64,000 bases of DNA from Trichocoleus sp. FACHB-46 (lineage in GTDB: Bacteria > Cyanobacteriota > Cyanobacteriia > FACHB-46). The DNA lies in the NCBI RefSeq assembly GCF_014695385.1, contig NZ_JACJOD010000041.1, positions 1-64,000 on the forward strand, in the 5' to 3' direction. Made by a program: the position numbers and the translations under genes. Below the pieces are notes generated by a model. That model saw nothing but the letters and a program-made list of their open reading frames with translations, was not told where the DNA came from and searched no databases. How positions within the stretch are numbered: position 1 is the stretch's first letter; every line of letters begins with the position of its first letter. Shown piece by piece: positions 36,964-49,191 of this stretch.

Positions 36964-37638
36964 TTTTTGGGTGTTTTGGTATTTGGGAACCGAGCCTTGG
37001 GGGCACTCGCCCCCAAACCCCCGCTGAGGGACGGCTGCGTCCCCCAGGCCCTCTCCAGAAAGGTTTAGAACTCACGCATTTACCCTCTTAGATTTTTCTT
37101 TTTAGATGTCAGATTCGCTCTGATTTTCCAAACTTGGGGCTAGGGGCTGTCCAGAAAAACCATCCTGCATCAACTTAGTCGCCCTATTGCCCAGTGTCCA
37201 GGGCGTTATGGCTTGGGCTTAACGCTAGGTAGTGGCGAAGTTAGGTTGAACGATATCTGCTATTTCTACCAAAGGATACTGGTGTCACCACAATTTCGGT
37301 TAGATATACTACTAAGTAGATGCACAACGACTTCTAATCGTCAAAGTTTAGTACTCTTCAGGCTCCTCAACGGTAGTCGTGGTCTAGGTTGCCGCTACTG
37401 AGTTGCCACTTATAGATAGAAGCAAAATTATTTGTCGCTGAAATTGGCTTCTTGCACAACCGCTGCTAATGGCACAGTGAAGGTAGGTGAGAGAGGCTAA
37501 CTTTAAGTCAGCGGAATGCCGTTCTGGCAGAACTTTGCCAAGGATAGGTATCTTTTAGCTACCTAGCTATAAGCTTCCAGTAACTTAACCATGCATCCTA
37601 AAACCACAACGATATCAAAACGTTTGTGGAGCATTGTG
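36964..37638. other. 675-bp intergenic region
   Basis: It begins with copy 2 of the dispersed double-hairpin repeat. The remainder has no believable gene; a 62-codon frame at 37213-37401 lacks a ribosome site and protein-like composition. It should contain the promoter of the hydrolase gene. Confidence 0.5.
36995..37059 (+). repeat. Dispersed double-hairpin repeat, copy 2
   Basis: The reference orientation. It contains GGGGGCACTCGCCCCC (36999-37014) and GGGACGGCTGCGTCCC (37028-37043), both self-complementary, separated by AAACCCCCGCTGA. It lies just after the VWA gene stop and could serve as its terminator. Confidence 0.8.
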
Positions 37639-38523
37639 ATGAGACATATTGAAGGGAAGTTCAAGGGATTTGGTGGGCTTGATCTCTATTACCAAAGCTG
37701 GCATCCAGAAGGGCAGGTTCAGGCTGTAGTCGTCATGGTACATGGCTTAGGAGCACATAGCAGTCTGTTCGGCCAGGTTGTGCAGTATTTGGTTAGACAG
37801 GAATATGAGGTTTATGCCTTTGATCTGCGGGGTCATGGACGTTCCCCTGGGCAGCGAGGACACATTGGCGCTTGGGCTGAGTTTCGGGAAGACCTTCAGG
37901 CATTTCTTCAACATATTCAGACCCTACGCGCCAGTTGCCCTTGTCCTTATTTTCTTTGGGGCCATAGTTTGGGTGGCACGATCGCGCTGGATTATGCCTT
38001 GCGATCGCCAAATTCCTTGCAGGGATTGATTGTATCTGCACCAGCTCTAGGAAGAGTCTCTGTATCTCGCTGCAAGCTGATCGTGGGGCGGCTCCTATCA
38101 GGAGTGTTTCCCCGCTTTAGTTTACGACTAGGGATTCCTTCAGACCTAGGGTCCCGTGACCCAACGCTTCTCTCAATTTACACCCAAGATCCACTGCGGC
38201 ATGAGTATGGCAGTGCCCGATTAGCCACAGAGTTTTTTGCGACCGTAGATTGGATCTACAAACATGCCTCGGATTTGCAAATTCCTCTATTACTGCTGCA
38301 TGGCAGTGCGGATCAAGTGATCCACCCAGAGAGTAGCCGAGTTTTCTTTCAGCAAGTTATGTTTTCTGATAAAGAACATCATGAATACCCAGGGTGTTAT
38401 CACGATCTTTATGTGGATGTTGATTACCAAAAGGTATTTACTGATTTAGAGAACTGGCTAGAACGACATCTGGCAGGAAGTCCATCCTGTGAGGCTTTAG
38501 GGCTGTGTGTGGTGCGCTACTAA
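37639..38523 (+). CDS. Alpha/beta hydrolase, monoacylglycerol-lipase type
   Basis: A 294-residue serine hydrolase. The oxyanion segment is VMVHGLGAHS, the nucleophile elbow GHSLGG, then FDLRGHGRSPG (the typical lysophospholipase/monoacylglycerol-lipase motif) and the late LLLHGSADQVIHPE and GCYHDLYVD with acid and histidine. A role in releasing fatty acids from glycerides is plausible and would fit the fatty-acid cluster starting about 0.9 kb downstream. ATG at 37639 has GGAG 7 nt upstream; an earlier ATG at 37591 has none. Confidence 0.87.
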   Translation: MRHIEGKFKGFGGLDLYYQSWHPEGQVQAVVVMVHGLGAHSSLFGQVVQYLVRQEYEVYAFDLRGHGRSPGQRGHIGAWAEFREDLQAFLQHIQTLRASCPCPYFLWGHSLGGTIALDYALRSPNSLQGLIVSAPALGRVSVSRCKLIVGRLLSGVFPRFSLRLGIPSDLGSRDPTLLSIYTQDPLRHEYGSARLATEFFATVDWIYKHASDLQIPLLLLHGSADQVIHPESSRVFFQQVMFSDKEHHEYPGCYHDLYVDVDYQKVFTDLENWLERHLAGSPSCEALGLCVVRY

Positions 38524-39400
38524 TTTACCGTTGGCTGAAGTGGGCGTTTGAGCTCGCCTAAACTCTAGTAGGTTCGCTTGGTAGATTCGTCTATCAAACC
38601 CTTCAGAAAATCCTTGAACTTCATGATTTTTCAGGTGATGTTGCGCTGAGAAACTATCACCTGAAAATCTATGAAGGAAGATAATTACTCTGGCTTAACT
38701 GGTCTTGCACCTTATATGTAAACTGTTTTTAAGCTTAGGATTAAAGTTTAATTACAAAGAAAATGCGATCGCTAAATCTTAGAGTTCTAAGAGGTAGACC
38801 TAGTGATATACATAATTTGTTTGTCTAGTTACCAGCTCAATCGGAACAGAAAAAACGCACTTACTTGCCGTTTTGAGTCTCTCTTTTGGAGGATAAGCTA
38901 TTGGGGATCAAGAAGAAAGGCTATATATAGCCCTTAGCTTTAACTTTGTAAAAGGTTGATTTGCTTTTGGCTTTGTTCAAGAAATGTATAAAAATCAGCG
39001 AATTGATGTTCTTGTAGCTACACTAAATATTATCTGAAAATCTATTGCTGTCAGTTTGTTAGGTATGGTACTGCCCAGACTGAAGCTGTATAGAAACTAC
39101 TGCTAATTACTACCAAGTTATAAGGAGACACTGGGAATTGACTAAGACTCCGGCCTTAGAAGTCGCATTCTTTATTTTCTAATGGGTCTGCATCTAGCAT
39201 CTCTGAAGCGTTGTTGAATCCTTGACGATTAAACCTCGATCAATTGTTTAACTTTTAGGATAGTTTAAGAAACTTGTAGCGCACTGTTCTCGTTGCATCC
39301 TTTGCGCTCCCAAATTTCTCTTCTAGAACTATTGCTTTGGAGAGCTGAAACATATCATTCGTGAGGAGAAGGGTTTTTACTCTTCGAGGAGATCTCCCAC
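38524..39400. other. 877-bp intergenic region before the fad cluster
   Basis: AT-rich, no credible gene. A 12-bp perfect inverted repeat (TTTTCAGGTGAT / ATCACCTGAAAA, about 38626-38667) lies about 100 bp after the hydrolase and may end its transcript. The unusual length suggests a regulated promoter for the fad cluster; no known FadR-type operator was recognised. Just before fadD the ribosome site GAGGAG overlaps the palindrome GGAGATCTCC. Confidence 0.5.
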
Positions 39401-41470
39401 ATGGATAAGACTTACCAGGCTCCTCCTAGCTCTGGCAGGGTCGTTCTGGGACGCACAATCCCCTCATTACTTGATGAGGCTTGTGCCCAAGCCCCAAATG
39501 CTCAAGCTTTGAACCAATGGACTGGCACAAATTGGCAATCCCTTTCCAATCACGGCTTTCGGGCAGCTGCTGAAGCCTGTACGTTGGGTTTGCTAAGGTT
39601 AGGGTTAGAGAGCGGCGATCGCGTCGCTTTATTGATGTATAGCGATGTCAAATTTGGCTTGGCTGATATGGGTTGCCTATGGGCAGGGTTGGTTGATGTA
39701 CCCATCGATCTCACTCATACCCTAGAGCAAATTATTTTTGTTCTCCAACACAGTGAAGCTAAGGCTTTAGTCATTGCTGACCTAGAGCTGTTGGTCCAAG
39801 TCACGCCACATTTAGGAGATACTCCTCACTTACGGCATATTATCGTGGCGGATGCCCCTGAGGATTGGGCAGAGCAGCGATCGCAGTGGCTCCAATCGTT
39901 TCCCGTTTCACTGATGTCTCTGGGTGAGTTGCAAAGTACCCAACCCATCCTAGAGACAAGTGAGGCAACGCCAGCTCTACAGGCGAATTCAAAACCTGAG
40001 GATTTGGCCACAATCATCTATATCCCGGATGAGGCGGGGCAACTGCAAGGGGTCATGCTAACCCATGAAAACCTCTCTATGAACGCTTTTGCCGCTTTCT
40101 CAGGCATTACTACACTAGGCAAAGGTGATGAGGAAACAGTGCTTTCCTTTCTGCCGTTAAACCATGTGTTAGCGCGGACGATGCTCTATGGACATATCCT
40201 TTATGGACACAGCATCTACTTCTCCAGTGCTAGCCGTCTCACCAAACATCTCCAGGAGGTTCAACCCACCATCTTAGTGACTGTACCCATTGTGTTGGAA
40301 AAGACATATAGCAAGATTGTTGAGAGGGGGAGTAAAGCTGGTTCTCTATTCACTCGTCTGATCTTTCTCTGGGCGCTAGGTTTAGCCAAACGTTATGAAA
40401 TTGGCCGCCAACCTAACCTTCTATATGCTCTACTGCTCAGGGTAGCCGATTGGCTGGTGCTGTCAAAATGGCGATCGCTCTTGGGGGGTCGCCTTAAATA
40501 TGTGATCTGTGGCGGAGCAGCGCTGAAGGCAGAATTAGCCAATGTCTTTGCCGCCGCTGGCATCCCGATTCTACATGGGTATGGTCTCACCCAAGCCAGT
40601 GCGGTGGTGTGCTGTAATTGTGGTTCCTTTAACCGAGCGGGAACGGTGGGACTACCGATCGCAGGGATAGAGGTGGCGATCGCGGAGGATCATGAGGTTT
40701 TGGTGCGTGGGCCTTGTATTACTTCCGGGTATTACAAAAATCCAGAAGCCACACAGAAACTCGTTGATCAGCAAGGCTGGTTGCATACAGGGGATTTGGG
40801 CGCGTTTACAGAAGACGGCTTTCTAAAAATTACAGGTCTGAAGAAGTCTCTGTTTAAACTCGCAACGGGCAAATATATTGCACCACAACCGATTGAGCAG
40901 CGATTGCAACAGTTTCCCTTGGTGGCTCAAGCGATCGCCGTGGGTTCCGCCCAAAAATTCTGTGCTGCCTTAATTGTTCCAGACTCACAGGCTCTCCATA
41001 GCTATGCCTTGGGAGTGGGGATTGATCTCCCACCCGATGCTCTCCTCACACATCCTCACGTCATAGCGCTTTACCAAGCTTTGGTCGATACCGCCAACTG
41101 TCATTTACCTTACTGGGCGATCGTCAAGCGCTTTCAACTGATCAACAATCCATTTACCGTAGAAAACGGCTTATTAACTCCAACCGGGCAACTGAACCGT
41201 ACCCAGATCAATAAAACCTTTAGCAAAGAAATTGATGCTTTGTACGGGGAATCAGAGCCAAGCCGTGGGAAAGATCAGGATAAGCAGAAAGCAGCCTCTA
41301 TATCTCCTCAAGCTTCTGAGACTGACCTGTCGAACGTGTATCCGTCTGTTTCACCTGCTGCTTGCCCTGCCTTTGCCCAATCCCTACCTCGGATTAATCG
41401 TTTAATTACGTTCATCCTTTGGACGAGTTTGACTGCGCCTCATTCACTCACAAAATTGCCAATCTATTAG
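39401..41470 (+). CDS. Acyl-CoA-synthetase-like protein with degenerate motifs
   Basis: A 689-residue member of the AMP-forming acyl-CoA synthetase family, closest in outline to long-chain FadD/ACSL. It keeps HTGDLG and the general fold, but the nucleotide motifs are eroded: the phosphate loop YTSGTTGxPKG reads YIPDEAGQLQG (207-217), the TE of motif A5 reads TQ (Q398), GRKK-D reads GLKKS (479-483) and the catalytic lysine position reads TPTGQLNR (Q597). An unusual C-terminal tail of about 65 residues follows. It heads the fadN-fadA-fadE cluster. Either a pseudoenzyme, a carrier-binding subunit or an atypical ligase; normal activity is doubtful. Confidence 0.8.
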   Translation: MDKTYQAPPSSGRVVLGRTIPSLLDEACAQAPNAQALNQWTGTNWQSLSNHGFRAAAEACTLGLLRLGLESGDRVALLMYSDVKFGLADMGCLWAGLVDVPIDLTHTLEQIIFVLQHSEAKALVIADLELLVQVTPHLGDTPHLRHIIVADAPEDWAEQRSQWLQSFPVSLMSLGELQSTQPILETSEATPALQANSKPEDLATIIYIPDEAGQLQGVMLTHENLSMNAFAAFSGITTLGKGDEETVLSFLPLNHVLARTMLYGHILYGHSIYFSSASRLTKHLQEVQPTILVTVPIVLEKTYSKIVERGSKAGSLFTRLIFLWALGLAKRYEIGRQPNLLYALLLRVADWLVLSKWRSLLGGRLKYVICGGAALKAELANVFAAAGIPILHGYGLTQASAVVCCNCGSFNRAGTVGLPIAGIEVAIAEDHEVLVRGPCITSGYYKNPEATQKLVDQQGWLHTGDLGAFTEDGFLKITGLKKSLFKLATGKYIAPQPIEQRLQQFPLVAQAIAVGSAQKFCAALIVPDSQALHSYALGVGIDLPPDALLTHPHVIALYQALVDTANCHLPYWAIVKRFQLINNPFTVENGLLTPTGQLNRTQINKTFSKEIDALYGESEPSRGKDQDKQKAASISPQASETDLSNVYPSVSPAACPAFAQSLPRINRLITFILWTSLTAPHSLTKLPIY

Positions 41471-41517: not shown

Positions 41518-43860
41518 ATGTTTAAGCCATTTCGAACCGCCGCCGTCCTGGGTGCAGGTGTAATGGGAAGCCAGATTGCTGCTCACCTCGCCAATATCGG
41601 TCTGACTGTGCATCTATTGGATCTGCCTGCCAAGACAGGGAATAAAAATGATTTGGTAGAAGGCGCGTTTAAGAAAGCCCGCAAGCTATCTCCACCGATC
41701 TTCTTTACGGATAAGGTGGCTCATCGCGTCATCCTGGGTAACTTTGAAGAACATTTTGATCGTCTAGCCAATGTAGATTGGGTCATTGAGGCTGTTGTTG
41801 AGAATCTAGACATCAAGCAACAACTGATGCAACGGCTGGAAGCGGTCATGCGGTCAGATGCTGTAATTTCTACTAATACCAGCGGATTGCCGATTCATGC
41901 GATCGCGGAAGGTCGAGCAGAATCCTTCCGCCAACGCTTTTTAGGCACCCATTTCTTCAATCCACCCCGCTATCTAAAATTGCTGGAAATCATCCCGACT
42001 CCGGAAACAGATCCGCAAGTAGTCGCACGCATGCGCTGGTTTGGAGAGACCCGCTTAGGCAAAGGTGTGGTGATTGCCAAAGACACACCCAACTTCATCG
42101 CCAACCGCATTGGCATGTATGCCACGATGCAAGGCTTACGAGCATGGACGGAGCAAGGATACACCATTGAGGAGGTCGATACTCTCACCGGGACTCTGGT
42201 AGGACGACCCAAATCAGCCACCTTTCGCACCGCTGACTTGGTGGGTTTAGATACCCTGATGTATGTGACAAAAAACCTTTATCCTGCCATTCCCCACGAT
42301 GAAAACCGCGAGATGTTCCGGGTGCCAGAAGTGCTGCACAAACTCGTCATGGCAGGGGCGATCGGAGCCAAAGGGGGACAAGGATTTTACAAGAAACAGA
42401 AGGGTGAAATTCTTTCAGTTAATCCCGAAACCATGAGCTACGAGCCTGCCAAGCCAATGGATTTGGGCGAGGTAGAGAAGTTGGGTAAGGTTTCAGGTTT
42501 GAGCGATCGCTTGCAAGCTCTGTACAAAGATCCTGGTCGTGCAGGGCAGTTCTTCCGCACCACCACACTGGACTTACTCGGATATAGCGTCCGTCGTATC
42601 CCTGAAATTGCTGATAGCCCTGCTGATATCGACCGAGCTATGTGCTGGGGGTTTGGCTGGGATGTTGGCCCCTTTGAGATTTGGGAGATGCTAGGCTTTG
42701 AAACCGTACTGGCAGATATGAAAGCAGCCAATATCTCGGTGCCCGAATGGGTAGAGGCCATGCAGAGTAGGGGCGAAGCATTCGGGCAATACTCTTTGCA
42801 ACCAACTACTAAGCCTACTTCCGAATGCTTCGCCCCTACAGTGGAGAAAATTGATTTAGAAGCTATTAAAACAGACCCACAAAAAACATTGTGGCAGAAT
42901 GCTGAAGCCGCTTTGCTGGATTTGGGTGATGGTGTAGCGCTGTATGAATTCCGCTCTAAAGGCAATACCCTCAGCTTCAAAGTAGTAGAAGGGTTAGCTG
43001 AGGTTCTAGATATCTTAGAAGAGCGGGACGACCTAAAAGGCATGGTGATTGGCAACGGTAGCGCTCATTTCTCTGGCGGTGCAAACCTCGCTGAAATGGG
43101 AATGACCGCCCAATCGGGCAACTTGCAAGCATTGGATGACCTGATTGTGGAGTTCCAGTCAGTTCTCCAGCGCATCCGCTATGCCCCCAAACCTGTAGTC
43201 ATTGCCCTGCAAGGGCGAGCCTTGGGAGGTGGTTGTGAGCTAGTGATGGCTTGTCCTCATGTCGTTGCTGCCGCTGAAACCTATATTGGCTTGGTAGAGG
43301 TAGGCGTGGGTCTAATTCCAGGGGCAGGCGGCATCATGAGGACTGTGGCACGAGTGGCAGAACGAGCCGCTAGCGACTCTCCCAGCGACATTCAACCGTT
43401 CCTCAAGGCCGCTTTTGAAACGATTGCGATGGCTAAGGTTTCTACCAGTGCCTACGAAGCCCAACAGATGGGATACCTCCCTTGTGATGCCCGCATTTTG
43501 ATCACTGGAGAGAATCGCCTAGAAGTGGCTAAAGCTGAGGTTATCCATCTCGATCGCGCTGGGTATGCACCACCGCCAGAACAAACCGCCATTATGGTCC
43601 TGGGCCGTCCCGCCAGAGCCATGCTAGAACATATCGCTTATGTTTTCCAACAAGGTGGTTTTGCTAGCGAATACGATCGCTACCTAGCAGGAAAGTTGGC
43701 TTATGTGATGACAGGGGGCGAACTCTCCGCTCCCGCTCTAGTGCATGAAGATTACCTGTTGCGTCTAGAACGGGAGAATTTCTTGCCGCTCCTCAGCCAA
43801 CCCAAAACCCAAGAGCGGATCACCCACATGTTGAAGACGAAGAAGCCACTGCGGAACTAA
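41518..43860 (+). CDS. fadN: FadN-type 3-hydroxyacyl-CoA dehydrogenase / enoyl-CoA hydratase
   Basis: A 780-residue bifunctional beta-oxidation enzyme. The dehydrogenase comes first: NAD motif GAGVMGSQIAAHLA near residue 13, catalytic histidine in GTHFFNPPRYLK, then C-terminal dehydrogenase domains to about 405. The hydratase follows (about 478-700) with HFSGGANLAEM and GRALGGGCELVMAC. This order is that of Bacillus FadN and opposite to E. coli FadB. The ATG at 41518 is preceded by GGGAGAG; the longer frame from 41419 overlaps fadD. Residues 417-441 are encoded by an inverted-repeat element inserted in frame. fadA begins 12 bp downstream with GGAG. Confidence 0.9.
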   Translation: MFKPFRTAAVLGAGVMGSQIAAHLANIGLTVHLLDLPAKTGNKNDLVEGAFKKARKLSPPIFFTDKVAHRVILGNFEEHFDRLANVDWVIEAVVENLDIKQQLMQRLEAVMRSDAVISTNTSGLPIHAIAEGRAESFRQRFLGTHFFNPPRYLKLLEIIPTPETDPQVVARMRWFGETRLGKGVVIAKDTPNFIANRIGMYATMQGLRAWTEQGYTIEEVDTLTGTLVGRPKSATFRTADLVGLDTLMYVTKNLYPAIPHDENREMFRVPEVLHKLVMAGAIGAKGGQGFYKKQKGEILSVNPETMSYEPAKPMDLGEVEKLGKVSGLSDRLQALYKDPGRAGQFFRTTTLDLLGYSVRRIPEIADSPADIDRAMCWGFGWDVGPFEIWEMLGFETVLADMKAANISVPEWVEAMQSRGEAFGQYSLQPTTKPTSECFAPTVEKIDLEAIKTDPQKTLWQNAEAALLDLGDGVALYEFRSKGNTLSFKVVEGLAEVLDILEERDDLKGMVIGNGSAHFSGGANLAEMGMTAQSGNLQALDDLIVEFQSVLQRIRYAPKPVVIALQGRALGGGCELVMACPHVVAAAETYIGLVEVGVGLIPGAGGIMRTVARVAERAASDSPSDIQPFLKAAFETIAMAKVSTSAYEAQQMGYLPCDARILITGENRLEVAKAEVIHLDRAGYAPPPEQTAIMVLGRPARAMLEHIAYVFQQGGFASEYDRYLAGKLAYVMTGGELSAPALVHEDYLLRLERENFLPLLSQPKTQERITHMLKTKKPLRN
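42767..42839 (+). mobile_element. MITE-like palindromic element inserted in fadN
   Basis: Perfect 19-bp terminal inverted repeats, GTAGGGGCGAAGCATTCGG (42767-42785) and its complement (42821-42839), bracket 35 bp. If TA is the target duplication (42768-42769 and 42837-42838), the insert is 69 bp or 23 codons without a stop, and removing it restores MQSTVE in frame. It lies in the linker between dehydrogenase and hydratase. No transposase is encoded; related elements are at 47680 and 47790. Confidence 0.75.
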
Positions 43861-43872
43861 GGAGAAACGACC

Positions 43873-45054
43873 ATGCAAGATGCATATATTGTGAGCAGCG
43901 TTCGGACGGCAGTGGGCAAAGCGCCTCGCGGTACCCTCCGCAACATGCGTCCTGACGATATGGGGGCGATCGCAGTCAAGGGAGCGATCGCCAGGGTAGA
44001 AGGACTAGAACCCAAACAGATTGACGATATCATCATCGGTTGCTCCTTCCCGGAAGCTGAACAAGGATTTAACTTGGGACGGGTGATTGCTCAACGGGCG
44101 GGATTACCCGACACCGTCGCAGGCTGCACCGTGAATCGCTTCTGTGCTTCGGGATTACAGACGATCGCGATGGCGACTCAAGCCGTGATGACAGGACAAG
44201 CGGACGTAATGGTGGCAGGTGGTGCAGAAACCATGAGCCTGATTCCGATGGGAGGTCACGCGATGGTTCCCAACCCAGACCTGATGACTTCAACGCCGCA
44301 AGTCTACTGCACAATGGGGTTAACGGCTGAAAATGTGGTGCAGCAGTATCACGTTTCGCGTGAAGATCAAGATGCCTTTGCTCTGCGATCGCACCAGCGA
44401 GCTTTGGCCGCCATTCAAGCAGGGAAATTTGAGGAAGAAACGATTCCGCTCCCCATTCACGAAACGCTATATGTAGATGGCGAAGCCAAAACAGTAGATA
44501 CGATCTTTCAAGTAGATGAAGGTCCACGTGCGGATACGAGTATGGAAGCTTTAGCCAAACTGCCTTCTGTGTTTCGCATGGGCGGTAGTGTCACGGCTGG
44601 CAATTCCTCGCAAATGTCCGATGGGGCTGCTGCCACAATCATCATGAGCCAACGCAAGATGGATGAGCTAGGCGTGAAACCAATGGGACGATTGTTAGGT
44701 TTCAGTGTGGCTGGCGTACCTCCGGAAGTGATGGGGATTGGGCCTGTAGAAGCAATTCCCAGGGTACTCAAGCAAGTCGGTTTAACCCTAGATGACATTG
44801 GCTTAATTGAACTCAATGAAGCCTTTGCCGCTCAATCTCTAGCTGTGATCCGTAAACTGGGTCTCAACGAGGAGATCATCAATGTCAATGGTGGCGCGAT
44901 CGCTCTAGGACATCCTTTAGGTATGACTGGAGCTAAACTCACCGCTACAATTCTTCACGAGATGAAACGACGCGGTGTGCGCTACGGCTTGGTGACGATG
45001 TGTGTCGGTGGCGGCATGGGCGCTGCTGGCGTGATTGAAAACTTGATGCTTTAG
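43873..45054 (+). CDS. fadA: Acetyl-CoA acyltransferase (thiolase)
   Basis: A 393-residue thiolase expected to cleave 3-ketoacyl-CoA with CoA, the last beta-oxidation step. The acyl-accepting cysteine is in [11 protein letters not shown], the catalytic histidine in [10 protein letters not shown] and the second cysteine in [10 protein letters not shown], all intact. The length is normal. It lies 12 bp after fadN with a GGAG site 8 nt before ATG, so it is in the same operon. Biosynthetic thiolases look similar, but the operon context supports catabolism. Confidence 0.93.
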
Positions 45055-47877: not shown

Positions 47878-49191
47878 ATGTCTTCTGCCATCAATGCCAC
47901 GCATGATCCAAATTTGCGGAGTTGGGTGGAGTCCGCTAACCAACCCAATACAGACTTTCCCATTCAAAACCTACCGTTGGGGGTGTTTCACAGACGCAAT
48001 AGCACTGAATATCCTCGTCTGGGTGTGGCGATCGGCGATCAAATTTTAGATCTCCTCCAGTGTCATGAACGTGGGCTTCTAGAAGGGCTGCCTGAAGATC
48101 TGCAAGCAGCTTGTGTAGACTCTAATCTCAATGCTCTAATGGCTTTGGGTAATTTAGCAGCATCGGTATTGCGGCAGCGCTTGAGTGAGCTGTTGCGATC
48201 GCCTCAGCAGGATGCTTCTATGAACCCCAATCTTCTCTTGCCCATGTCGGAAGCGGAGATGCTATTACCTGCCGCAATCGCTGACTACACAGACTTTTAT
48301 GCGTCTATTTTTCATGCAACCAACGTCGGCAAGCTGTTCCGTCCTGACAATCCTTTGCTGCCTAATTACAAATATGTACCGATCGCTTATCACGGACGCG
48401 CTTCTTCCATTATGGTCAGCGGTACAAACATCAAGCGCCCCAACGGTCAACGCAAACCACCAGAAGCTACAGCGCCGAGCTTTGGCCCCAGTCAAATGTT
48501 GGACTACGAGCTGGAAATCGGAGCTTTCATAGGAGTTGGCAATGAATTAGGGGAGGCGATCGCCATCGATCAGGCTGAGGATTATCTCTTTGGACTGTGC
48601 TTAGTTAATGATTGGTCTGCTAGAGATATTCAAGCTTGGGAATACCAACCTTTAGGCCCATTTCTAGCTAAGAACTTCGCCACTACCATTTCTCCGTGGG
48701 TCGTGACTACGGAAGCCCTAGCTCCTTTTCGCTGTCCTGCATTTCAACGCGCCGCAGGAGATCCAGAGCCTCTACCTTATTTATCTTCTGAGCGCGATCG
48801 CCAACAGGGAGGCATTGCCATCACTGTCGAAGTATCTCTATGTTCTGCTCAAATGCGAGAGGCAGGCATTGCACCCTTGCGGCTTAGTCAGGGTTCGTTT
48901 CAGCAAATGTATTGGACCTTGGCTCAGATGCTCACTCATCATGCCAGCAATGGTTGTAATCTCCGTCCTGCTGATTTGCTTGCTAGTGGCACTATCTCTG
49001 GAGCAGAGCCCGGTTCTCAAGGATGCTTGCTAGAGATTACTCAACGCGGCTCCCAACCCATCGAACTACCCACTGGAGAACAGCGATCGTTCCTAGTGGA
49101 TGGAGATGAGGTAATTCTACGGGGTTACTGTGAGAAATCTGGATATGCTCGCATTGGTTTCGGCAATTGCCAAGGGAGAGTAACAGGATGA
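47878..49191 (+). CDS. fahA: Fumarylacetoacetase
   Basis: A 437-residue hydrolase that splits fumarylacetoacetate to fumarate and acetoacetate, the last step of tyrosine/homogentisate catabolism. The N-terminal SH3-like part (FPIQNLPLGVFHRR) precedes the FAH fold; metal and catalytic residues lie in DYTDFYASIFHATNVG, YHGRASS, LDYELEIGAFIG and LVNDWSARDIQAWEYQPLGPF. AAGG and GGGAGG lie upstream of the ATG. Other tyrosine-degradation genes are not in the window; acetoacetate formed here could feed the neighbouring thiolase. Confidence 0.93.
   Translation: MSSAINATHDPNLRSWVESANQPNTDFPIQNLPLGVFHRRNSTEYPRLGVAIGDQILDLLQCHERGLLEGLPEDLQAACVDSNLNALMALGNLAASVLRQRLSELLRSPQQDASMNPNLLLPMSEAEMLLPAAIADYTDFYASIFHATNVGKLFRPDNPLLPNYKYVPIAYHGRASSIMVSGTNIKRPNGQRKPPEATAPSFGPSQMLDYELEIGAFIGVGNELGEAIAIDQAEDYLFGLCLVNDWSARDIQAWEYQPLGPFLAKNFATTISPWVVTTEALAPFRCPAFQRAAGDPEPLPYLSSERDRQQGGIAITVEVSLCSAQMREAGIAPLRLSQGSFQQMYWTLAQMLTHHASNGCNLRPADLLASGTISGAEPGSQGCLLEITQRGSQPIELPTGEQRSFLVDGDEVILRGYCEKSGYARIGFGNCQGRVTG

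Follow-up and report, generated by a model that had tools for sequence, protein, structure and literature searches.

A FadD homologue without adenylation residues in a cyanobacterial fad operon

How is acyl-CoA supplied to a β-oxidation operon in which the place expected for the acyl-CoA ligase FadD is occupied by a homologue without the residues of adenylation? The question is raised by one gene (39401..41470, + strand) of the window, by which we mean the whole stretch of 64,000 nucleotides from Trichocoleus sp. FACHB-46 that was analyzed. Two papers state that β-oxidation in cyanobacteria is not present (PMC6123915) or not complete (PMC7181335). A pan-genome study describes acyl-CoA dehydrogenase, hydroxyacyl-CoA dehydrogenase and thiolase genes as grouped in these organisms (PMC5862535). 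Module 303 of the latter study, around the thiolase gene, is the same operon so far as it is described there, and neither the ligase nor its lost residues are named in that description of the module. Our literature search, which had partial coverage, returned no account of a fad operon whose ligase-like protein lacks the residues of adenylation. Thus, the operon has already been noted in print, while the defect of its ligase was not found in the literature searched.

From the comparisons presented below, we consider it highly probable that this protein has lost adenylation, that its gene is under selection and that it is tied to β-oxidation. It is an ANL homologue, apparently not an adenylating FadD, and possibly a half-ligase resembling PtmA2.

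The ligase-like gene and its genomic setting

The reading frame at 39401-41470 is unbroken from ATG to stop over 689 codons, and its 689-aa product, which we call pseudo-FadD, has the AMP-binding fold without the adenylation residues. Pseudo-FadD clearly belongs to the AMP-binding (ANL) family and carries a C-terminal domain, as Pfam recovered both AMP-binding (PF00501; E 5e-53, 180.7 bits against a cut-off of 29.9) and AMP-binding_C_3 (PF23562; E 5e-11, 43.5 bits against a cut-off of 20.8). A Foldseek search with the predicted structure returned ANL structures, the top ones being adenylation domains of carboxylic acid reductases (CAR); this AlphaFold2 model, built from a shallow alignment, has a mean pLDDT of 73, with values below 50 in the active-site loops. 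The best NCBIfam match was NF038343 (254 bits against a cut-off of 950), although this is a weak test, given that canonical Aas also fails the listed cut-offs.

The motifs of the family are altered to different degrees. The phosphate loop is degenerate (YIPDEAGQLQG, residues 207-217, 40019..40051), the A5 motif reads GYGLTQ (residues 393-398, 40577..40594), the A8 and hinge region is GLKKSLFKLATGKY (residues 479-492, 40835..40876) and includes GLKKS at residues 479-483, and Gln597 (41189..41191) occupies the position where the catalytic lysine of A10 is expected. The A7 motif HTGDLG (residues 462-467, 40784..40801) is kept, as is Lys482, which we take to be the hinge position. All of these lie on the + strand. 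In alignment, the changed positions correspond to SGTTGxPKG, E, R and K of the canonical paralogue in the same genome and of other relatives. The initial annotation, made from the letters of the sequence, had listed these same changed residues in a frame intact over 689 codons with HTGDLG kept, and both the sequence and the alignment agree with it. It had also placed the gene in a fad operon, which proved correct: on the same strand downstream are genes for FadB (3-hydroxyacyl-CoA dehydrogenase, then enoyl-CoA hydratase; 41518..43860, with the ATG start at 41518 chosen from relatives), the 3-ketoacyl-CoA thiolase FadA (43873..45054) and FadE, an acyl-CoA dehydrogenase of the type found in E. 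coli (PF09317; 45193..47658).

To see how general this arrangement is, we used a survey of 291 genomes of the window's class, drawn evenly from a larger group. Orthologues of pseudo-FadD occur in 62 of the 291; their position, score and identity set them apart from canonical Aas-like matches (E 1e-60 to 1e-68, 31-37% identity). Stretches were fetched for 60 orthologue loci besides the window's genome, plus one further fragment. At the 60 loci examined, the downstream partners, wherever found, are on the same strand (FadB 59/59, FadA 57/57, FadE 50/50), and the loci without a scored FadB, FadA or FadE reach a contig end. FadE (PF09317) is present in 60/291 genomes, representing 38 of 130 genera, and 59 genomes have it together with pseudo-FadD (62 and 60 carriers, in raw counts that ignore kinship). 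The exceptions are three genomes with no FadE (G069, G080, G241) and one with no orthologue (G092), all of which are 62-82% complete.

The partner enzymes keep the aligned residues that we take to be catalytic, namely C91 (57/57), H347 (54/54) and C377 (54/54) in FadA, H178 (59/60), E607 (59/59) and E627 (59/59) in FadB, and E499 (51/51 aligned) in FadE. The single FadB that lacks His178 (L086) spans two frames. The window's genome also has matches to photosystem reaction-centre proteins (PF00124).

Other genes of the genome might be expected to supply activated acyl groups, and the initial annotation had proposed looking for a second, canonical ligase. One was found, namely an acyl-ACP synthetase, Aas (C22:183788-185764). 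The genome has 23 PF00501 matches, and its stand-alone PF00501 genes encode acetate- and acetoacetate-type ligases, an O-succinylbenzoate ligase, a fatty-acyl-AMP ligase, Aas and pseudo-FadD; only Aas and the fatty-acyl-AMP ligase were recognized as canonical long-chain acyl-activating genes. In the cyanobacteria studied, Aas converts free fatty acids back to acyl-ACP (PMC7181335). The operon therefore encodes the steps downstream of acyl-CoA but lacks an ordinary enzyme for producing it.

Of the 62 operon genomes, 54 were searched for Aas, which was identified in 53 from the match positions listed. The fatty-acyl-AMP ligase occurs in 43/62 operon genomes versus 73/229 others (raw counts, ignoring kinship); a role as obligate partner is not supported, as it is absent at E<=1e-100 from 19/62 operon genomes. 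One operon genome that is 99% complete (G160, locus L084) has no Aas match, which may reflect an assembly gap, and a fused pseudo-FadD is the only protein of its type there; the fatty-acyl-AMP ligase was likewise not recognized among its 12 PF00501 matches.

Loss and retention of motifs across the clade

The initial annotation had also suggested comparing the lost residues with those of orthologues in other cyanobacteria. In the 59 orthologues that could be aligned, the losses of the phosphate loop, the A8 arginine and the A10 lysine are universal. The number of SGTTG residues matched is 0 in 3 orthologues, 1 in 36, 2 in 13 and 3 in 7, and none matches 4 or 5. Neither Arg at position 480 (A8) nor Lys at position 597 (A10) occurs in any of the 59, and 16 of them have a gap at 597; one A10-like pattern (L070) is shifted in the alignment and falls outside this position. 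In 7 of the 60 fetched loci (L096, L099, L103, L105, L106, L107, L125), an insert of about 34 aa lies inside the phosphate loop. Judged from these alignments, the motif loss in pseudo-FadD is not due to chance.

The 59 exclude two loci, L117 and L125, where the ligase-like gene is split over two frames, as well as L165 (in G080), which is cut by a contig end and has the same changes as far as its sequence runs. The two split genes belong to two draft genomes, and their N-terminal halves are also without a normal phosphate loop. A scan of the genome contigs returned no close pseudo-FadD orthologue, the 12 relatives found being at most 43% identical.

Other features are retained throughout. Invariant in 59/59 are H255 (the A4 histidine), Y394, G395, T397, W460, D465, G479, K481, K482, K486, G490, Y492, C521 and W572; the whole of GYGLT is invariant, as are Thr463, Gly464 and Asp465 (TGD). 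Residue 398 is Gln in 33/59 orthologues and Glu in 26/59, and residue 216 is Lys in 26/59. The statement in the initial annotation that all nucleotide motifs are eroded thus holds for the phosphate loop, A8 Arg and A10 Lys, which are gone in 59/59, but not for Tyr394, Gly395, Thr397, Asp465 and Lys482, which never vary, nor entirely for Glu398 and Lys216, each of which is present in 26/59.

We quantified this pattern as the mean frequency of the commonest residue per motif in pseudo-FadD versus canonical Aas, using the 30 genomes that hold both. Conservation is reduced in the phosphate loop (0.62 in pseudo-FadD vs 0.89 in Aas) and the surroundings of A10 (0.50 vs 0.93), somewhat lower in A5 (0.92 vs 1.00) and A8 (0.89 vs 0.99), and unchanged in A7 (0.96 vs 0.94) and A4 (0.83 vs 0.82), with overall values of 0.67 and 0.74. 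By this measure, the loss is concentrated in the parts of the protein that serve adenylation. Separately, Cys521 (40961-40963) and Trp572 are present in 59/59 pseudo-FadD proteins, whereas the 30 Aas proteins have Leu (97%) and Tyr (100%) instead.

In a quick tree computed without the motif columns, the pseudo-FadD orthologues form one side of a branch (SH-aLRT 100), so that the group has one origin. Its neighbor in the tree is the long branch of a canonical Aquitalea protein, although the placement of such long rows is unsure; ten further sequences, mainly near-duplicates, are not part of this tree. Among the copies of the window and two genomes of the same genus, dN/dS (Nei-Gojobori) is 0.083-0.103 for pseudo-FadD, close to the values in the same three genomes for FadB (0.058-0.072) and FadE (0.062-0.078); FadA gives 0.025-0.047, the alpha/beta-hydrolase discussed below 0.054-0.095 and Aas 0.043-0.050. 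The proposal that selection maintains the gene is supported by these values and by the same losses in 59 orthologues of one clade. Recent decay, which the initial annotation had named among the findings that would overturn it, is excluded by the clade-wide loss and the low dN/dS, and a sequencing or frame error is excluded because same-genus copies that are 89-90% identical have the same residues.

Possible functions of pseudo-FadD

The reading that we favor, with modest confidence, over that of a passive protein is that pseudo-FadD is a ligase that no longer adenylates but retains the half of the reaction in which the thioester is formed or the acyl group handed on. Pseudo-FadD is, with high probability, an ancient and selectively maintained non-adenylating ANL homologue that serves FadB-FadA-FadE β-oxidation. 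The alignments show that the adenylation machinery (phosphate loop, A10 Lys and A8 Arg) is gone in the whole clade, and that the adenosine pocket (GYGLT, TGD), hinge Lys, A8 glycines, pantetheine-tunnel Gly and remaining fold have been retained. In the proposed scheme, the protein would carry out the later half of the ligase reaction. Its acyl donor would be a group activated elsewhere, i.e., acyl-AMP or acyl-ACP from canonical Aas, or alternatively acyl groups released by the neighboring, and sometimes fused, alpha/beta-hydrolase. Pseudo-FadD would then pass the acyl group to CoA, or the chain to FadE, spending no ATP itself. The mechanism as worded, whether half-ligase or acyl hand-off, is a tentative proposal that we would not yet call probable.

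The initial annotation suggested a non-catalytic role, perhaps in fatty-acid binding or regulation, which is conjectural. The hinge-position Lys, within the motif that it had counted as lost, is invariant, and residues of the thioester half are kept, so a half-reaction is conceivable. According to PMC6122825, mutation of CBL Gly409, a residue of the phosphopantetheine tunnel wall, disturbs the thioester step alone, whereas Lys492, the A10 lysine, is used for adenylation and afterwards turns into solvent; by our own residue matching, these correspond to G490 and position 597. However, in the same source the kcat/Km of CBL R400A (our position 480) falls 100-fold for the acid and for ATP, and 600-fold for CoA. 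The A8 arginine, which is lost here, thus matters for both halves in CBL, so the CoA step of pseudo-FadD may be impaired too, and our preference for a half-ligase is only modest for this reason. Also counting against it are the apparent lack of an acyl-AMP donor tied to the operon (fatty-acyl-AMP ligase in 43/62) and the low confidence of the predicted model at the active-site loops. The kept motifs could be purely structural.

A precedent may be found in platensimycin biosynthesis. PtmA2 was reportedly described as a non-adenylating acyl-CoA ligase by Wang et al. in Nat Chem Biol in 2018. The review PMC6594144 likewise presents it as such, with a second ANL protein, PtmA1, adenylating for it. 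Both PtmA2 and pseudo-FadD belong to the ANL family and appear to have the halves of the ligase reaction separated, and the losses in pseudo-FadD are consistent with a ligase having abandoned adenylation and retained the rest. PtmA2 belongs to one pathway of secondary metabolism, whereas pseudo-FadD belongs to a clade-wide operon of primary metabolism, and, unlike PtmA2, the latter has no apparent dedicated adenylating partner tied to its operon.

The most serious competitor is that pseudo-FadD is a true pseudoenzyme with no chemistry of its own, which binds a fatty acyl chain or acyl-CoA and serves the hydrolase and FadB/FadE as a scaffold, a delivery subunit or an allosteric partner. This is a real possibility, to which we give somewhat less credence than to the half-ligase. 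It would account for the loss of every adenylation residue together with the A8 arginine, for the retention of the fold and domain core, and for an A10 region so variable that position 597 is a gap in 16/59; moreover, fusion to the hydrolase and the order of the operon suggest a physical complex. However, the hinge Lys, the A7 Asp, the A5 core and the pantetheine-tunnel Gly are invariant in 59/59, and a passive binder would not obviously need them.

Should β-oxidation here be fed without any adenylating CoA ligase, pseudo-FadD, with or without the hydrolase, would move acyl groups from membrane lipid, acyl-ACP or acyl-AMP directly to CoA; we regard this more specific statement as rather doubtful. 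If it is true, acyl transfer to CoA with no ATP spent by pseudo-FadD itself would be an entry into β-oxidation that is undescribed in the literature searched, whose coverage was partial. Because pseudo-FadD is present in 59/60 FadE genomes and is not expected to adenylate, how acyl-CoA arises in them is a directly testable question. The clade also provides many natural ANL proteins in which adenylation appears to have been lost once and other parts kept; these could help to dissect the two half-reactions and to engineer fatty-acid products in cyanobacteria.

The alpha/beta-hydrolase (Hydrolase_4; 37591..38523, + strand) deserves separate consideration, as it could form an ATP-independent pair with pseudo-FadD: the hydrolase would make an acyl-serine from lipid or acyl-ACP and pseudo-FadD would present CoA, so that the acyl group goes to CoA and not to water. 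In 3 of the 60 loci, from genomes of three families, the two are fused in frame as single frames of 989-1021 codons (L073:2677-5700, L084:8992-11958, L088:8995-12057), and in 30 more the hydrolase gene precedes that of pseudo-FadD on the same strand, at a distance of at most about 1.15 kb. Its aligned Ser126 (36/36), Asp241 (35/35) and His271 (35/35), presumably catalytic, are kept, and it is enriched in operon genomes (48/62 vs 27/229 others, in raw counts ignoring kinship). Fusion and proximity suggest that the hydrolase works together with pseudo-FadD. However, no hydrolase was found in the fetched stretch at 25/60 loci, nor in 14/62 operon genomes at E<=1e-60, and in the window 877 bp separate the two genes. 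We are aware of no comparable enzyme pair, and we judge this reading improbable. The hydrolase as a strict operon partner was rejected, as it is only enriched and also occurs in 27/229 non-operon genomes.

At least equally improbable, in our view, is that pseudo-FadD, despite its atypical residues, still catalyzes the complete ATP-dependent ligation of acyl groups to CoA. It occupies the place expected of FadD in a fad operon, the adenosine-pocket residues Y394, T397 and D465 are invariant, and Glu398 and Lys216 are each retained in 26/59. Against this, no orthologue has the A10 lysine (0/59), the A8 arginine or a phosphate loop, which is even interrupted by inserts in 7 loci. In FadD13, the K487A mutation cost 96% of activity (PMC2793005). 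Finally, because Aas is present in 53/54 operon genomes searched, FadD could be dispensable, but neutral decay of a redundant ligase once Aas took over is barely credible, being already refuted by the clade-wide conservation of shared losses, a dN/dS of 0.08-0.10 and one open frame in 58/60 fetched loci (some cut by contig ends).

Related genes and neighboring sequences

Two groups of canonical relatives can be compared with pseudo-FadD. Canonical FadD proteins from another class of the phylum (L166-L171) and from Aquitalea (L054) have the same domains as pseudo-FadD, 33-39% identity to it and A4, A5 and A7 in common. They differ in that they keep the phosphate loop and A8 arginine, and most of them the A10 lysine, whereas the cyanobacterial clade keeps none of these. 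Cyanobacterial Aas, although of the ANL family and found in the same genomes as pseudo-FadD, has all motifs intact, forms a separate clade and lies outside the operon.

Four genomes of that other class (G291, G295, G301 and G310; L156-L159, L166-L171) have FadE and a canonical FadD-like gene, and no reaction-centre matches. A fad operon with a canonical FadD was considered for them and rejected, as the two genes do not fall within any one of the fetched stretches that were analyzed.

The 877 bases between the hydrolase and pseudo-FadD genes in the window (38524-39400) form a leader that is well conserved within the genus and has a hairpin-like inverted repeat near its start. An RNA element in this leader is unsupported: Rfam gave no match in the window, the predicted fold of 39000-39160 is no better than those of shuffled sequences (z 0.08). 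Scans for promoters and terminators yielded fewer matches than shuffled sequences did.

At four loci of one genus (L115, L118, L119, L120), upstream ORFs of 814-825 codons have the hydrolase joined to an N-terminal DUF1400-type hydrolase, as determined by Pfam runs on L115 and L118. At the other end of the operon, a fumarylacetoacetase-type gene (47878-49191) follows FadE in the window and in two genomes of the same genus, and was not found in the other fetched stretches.
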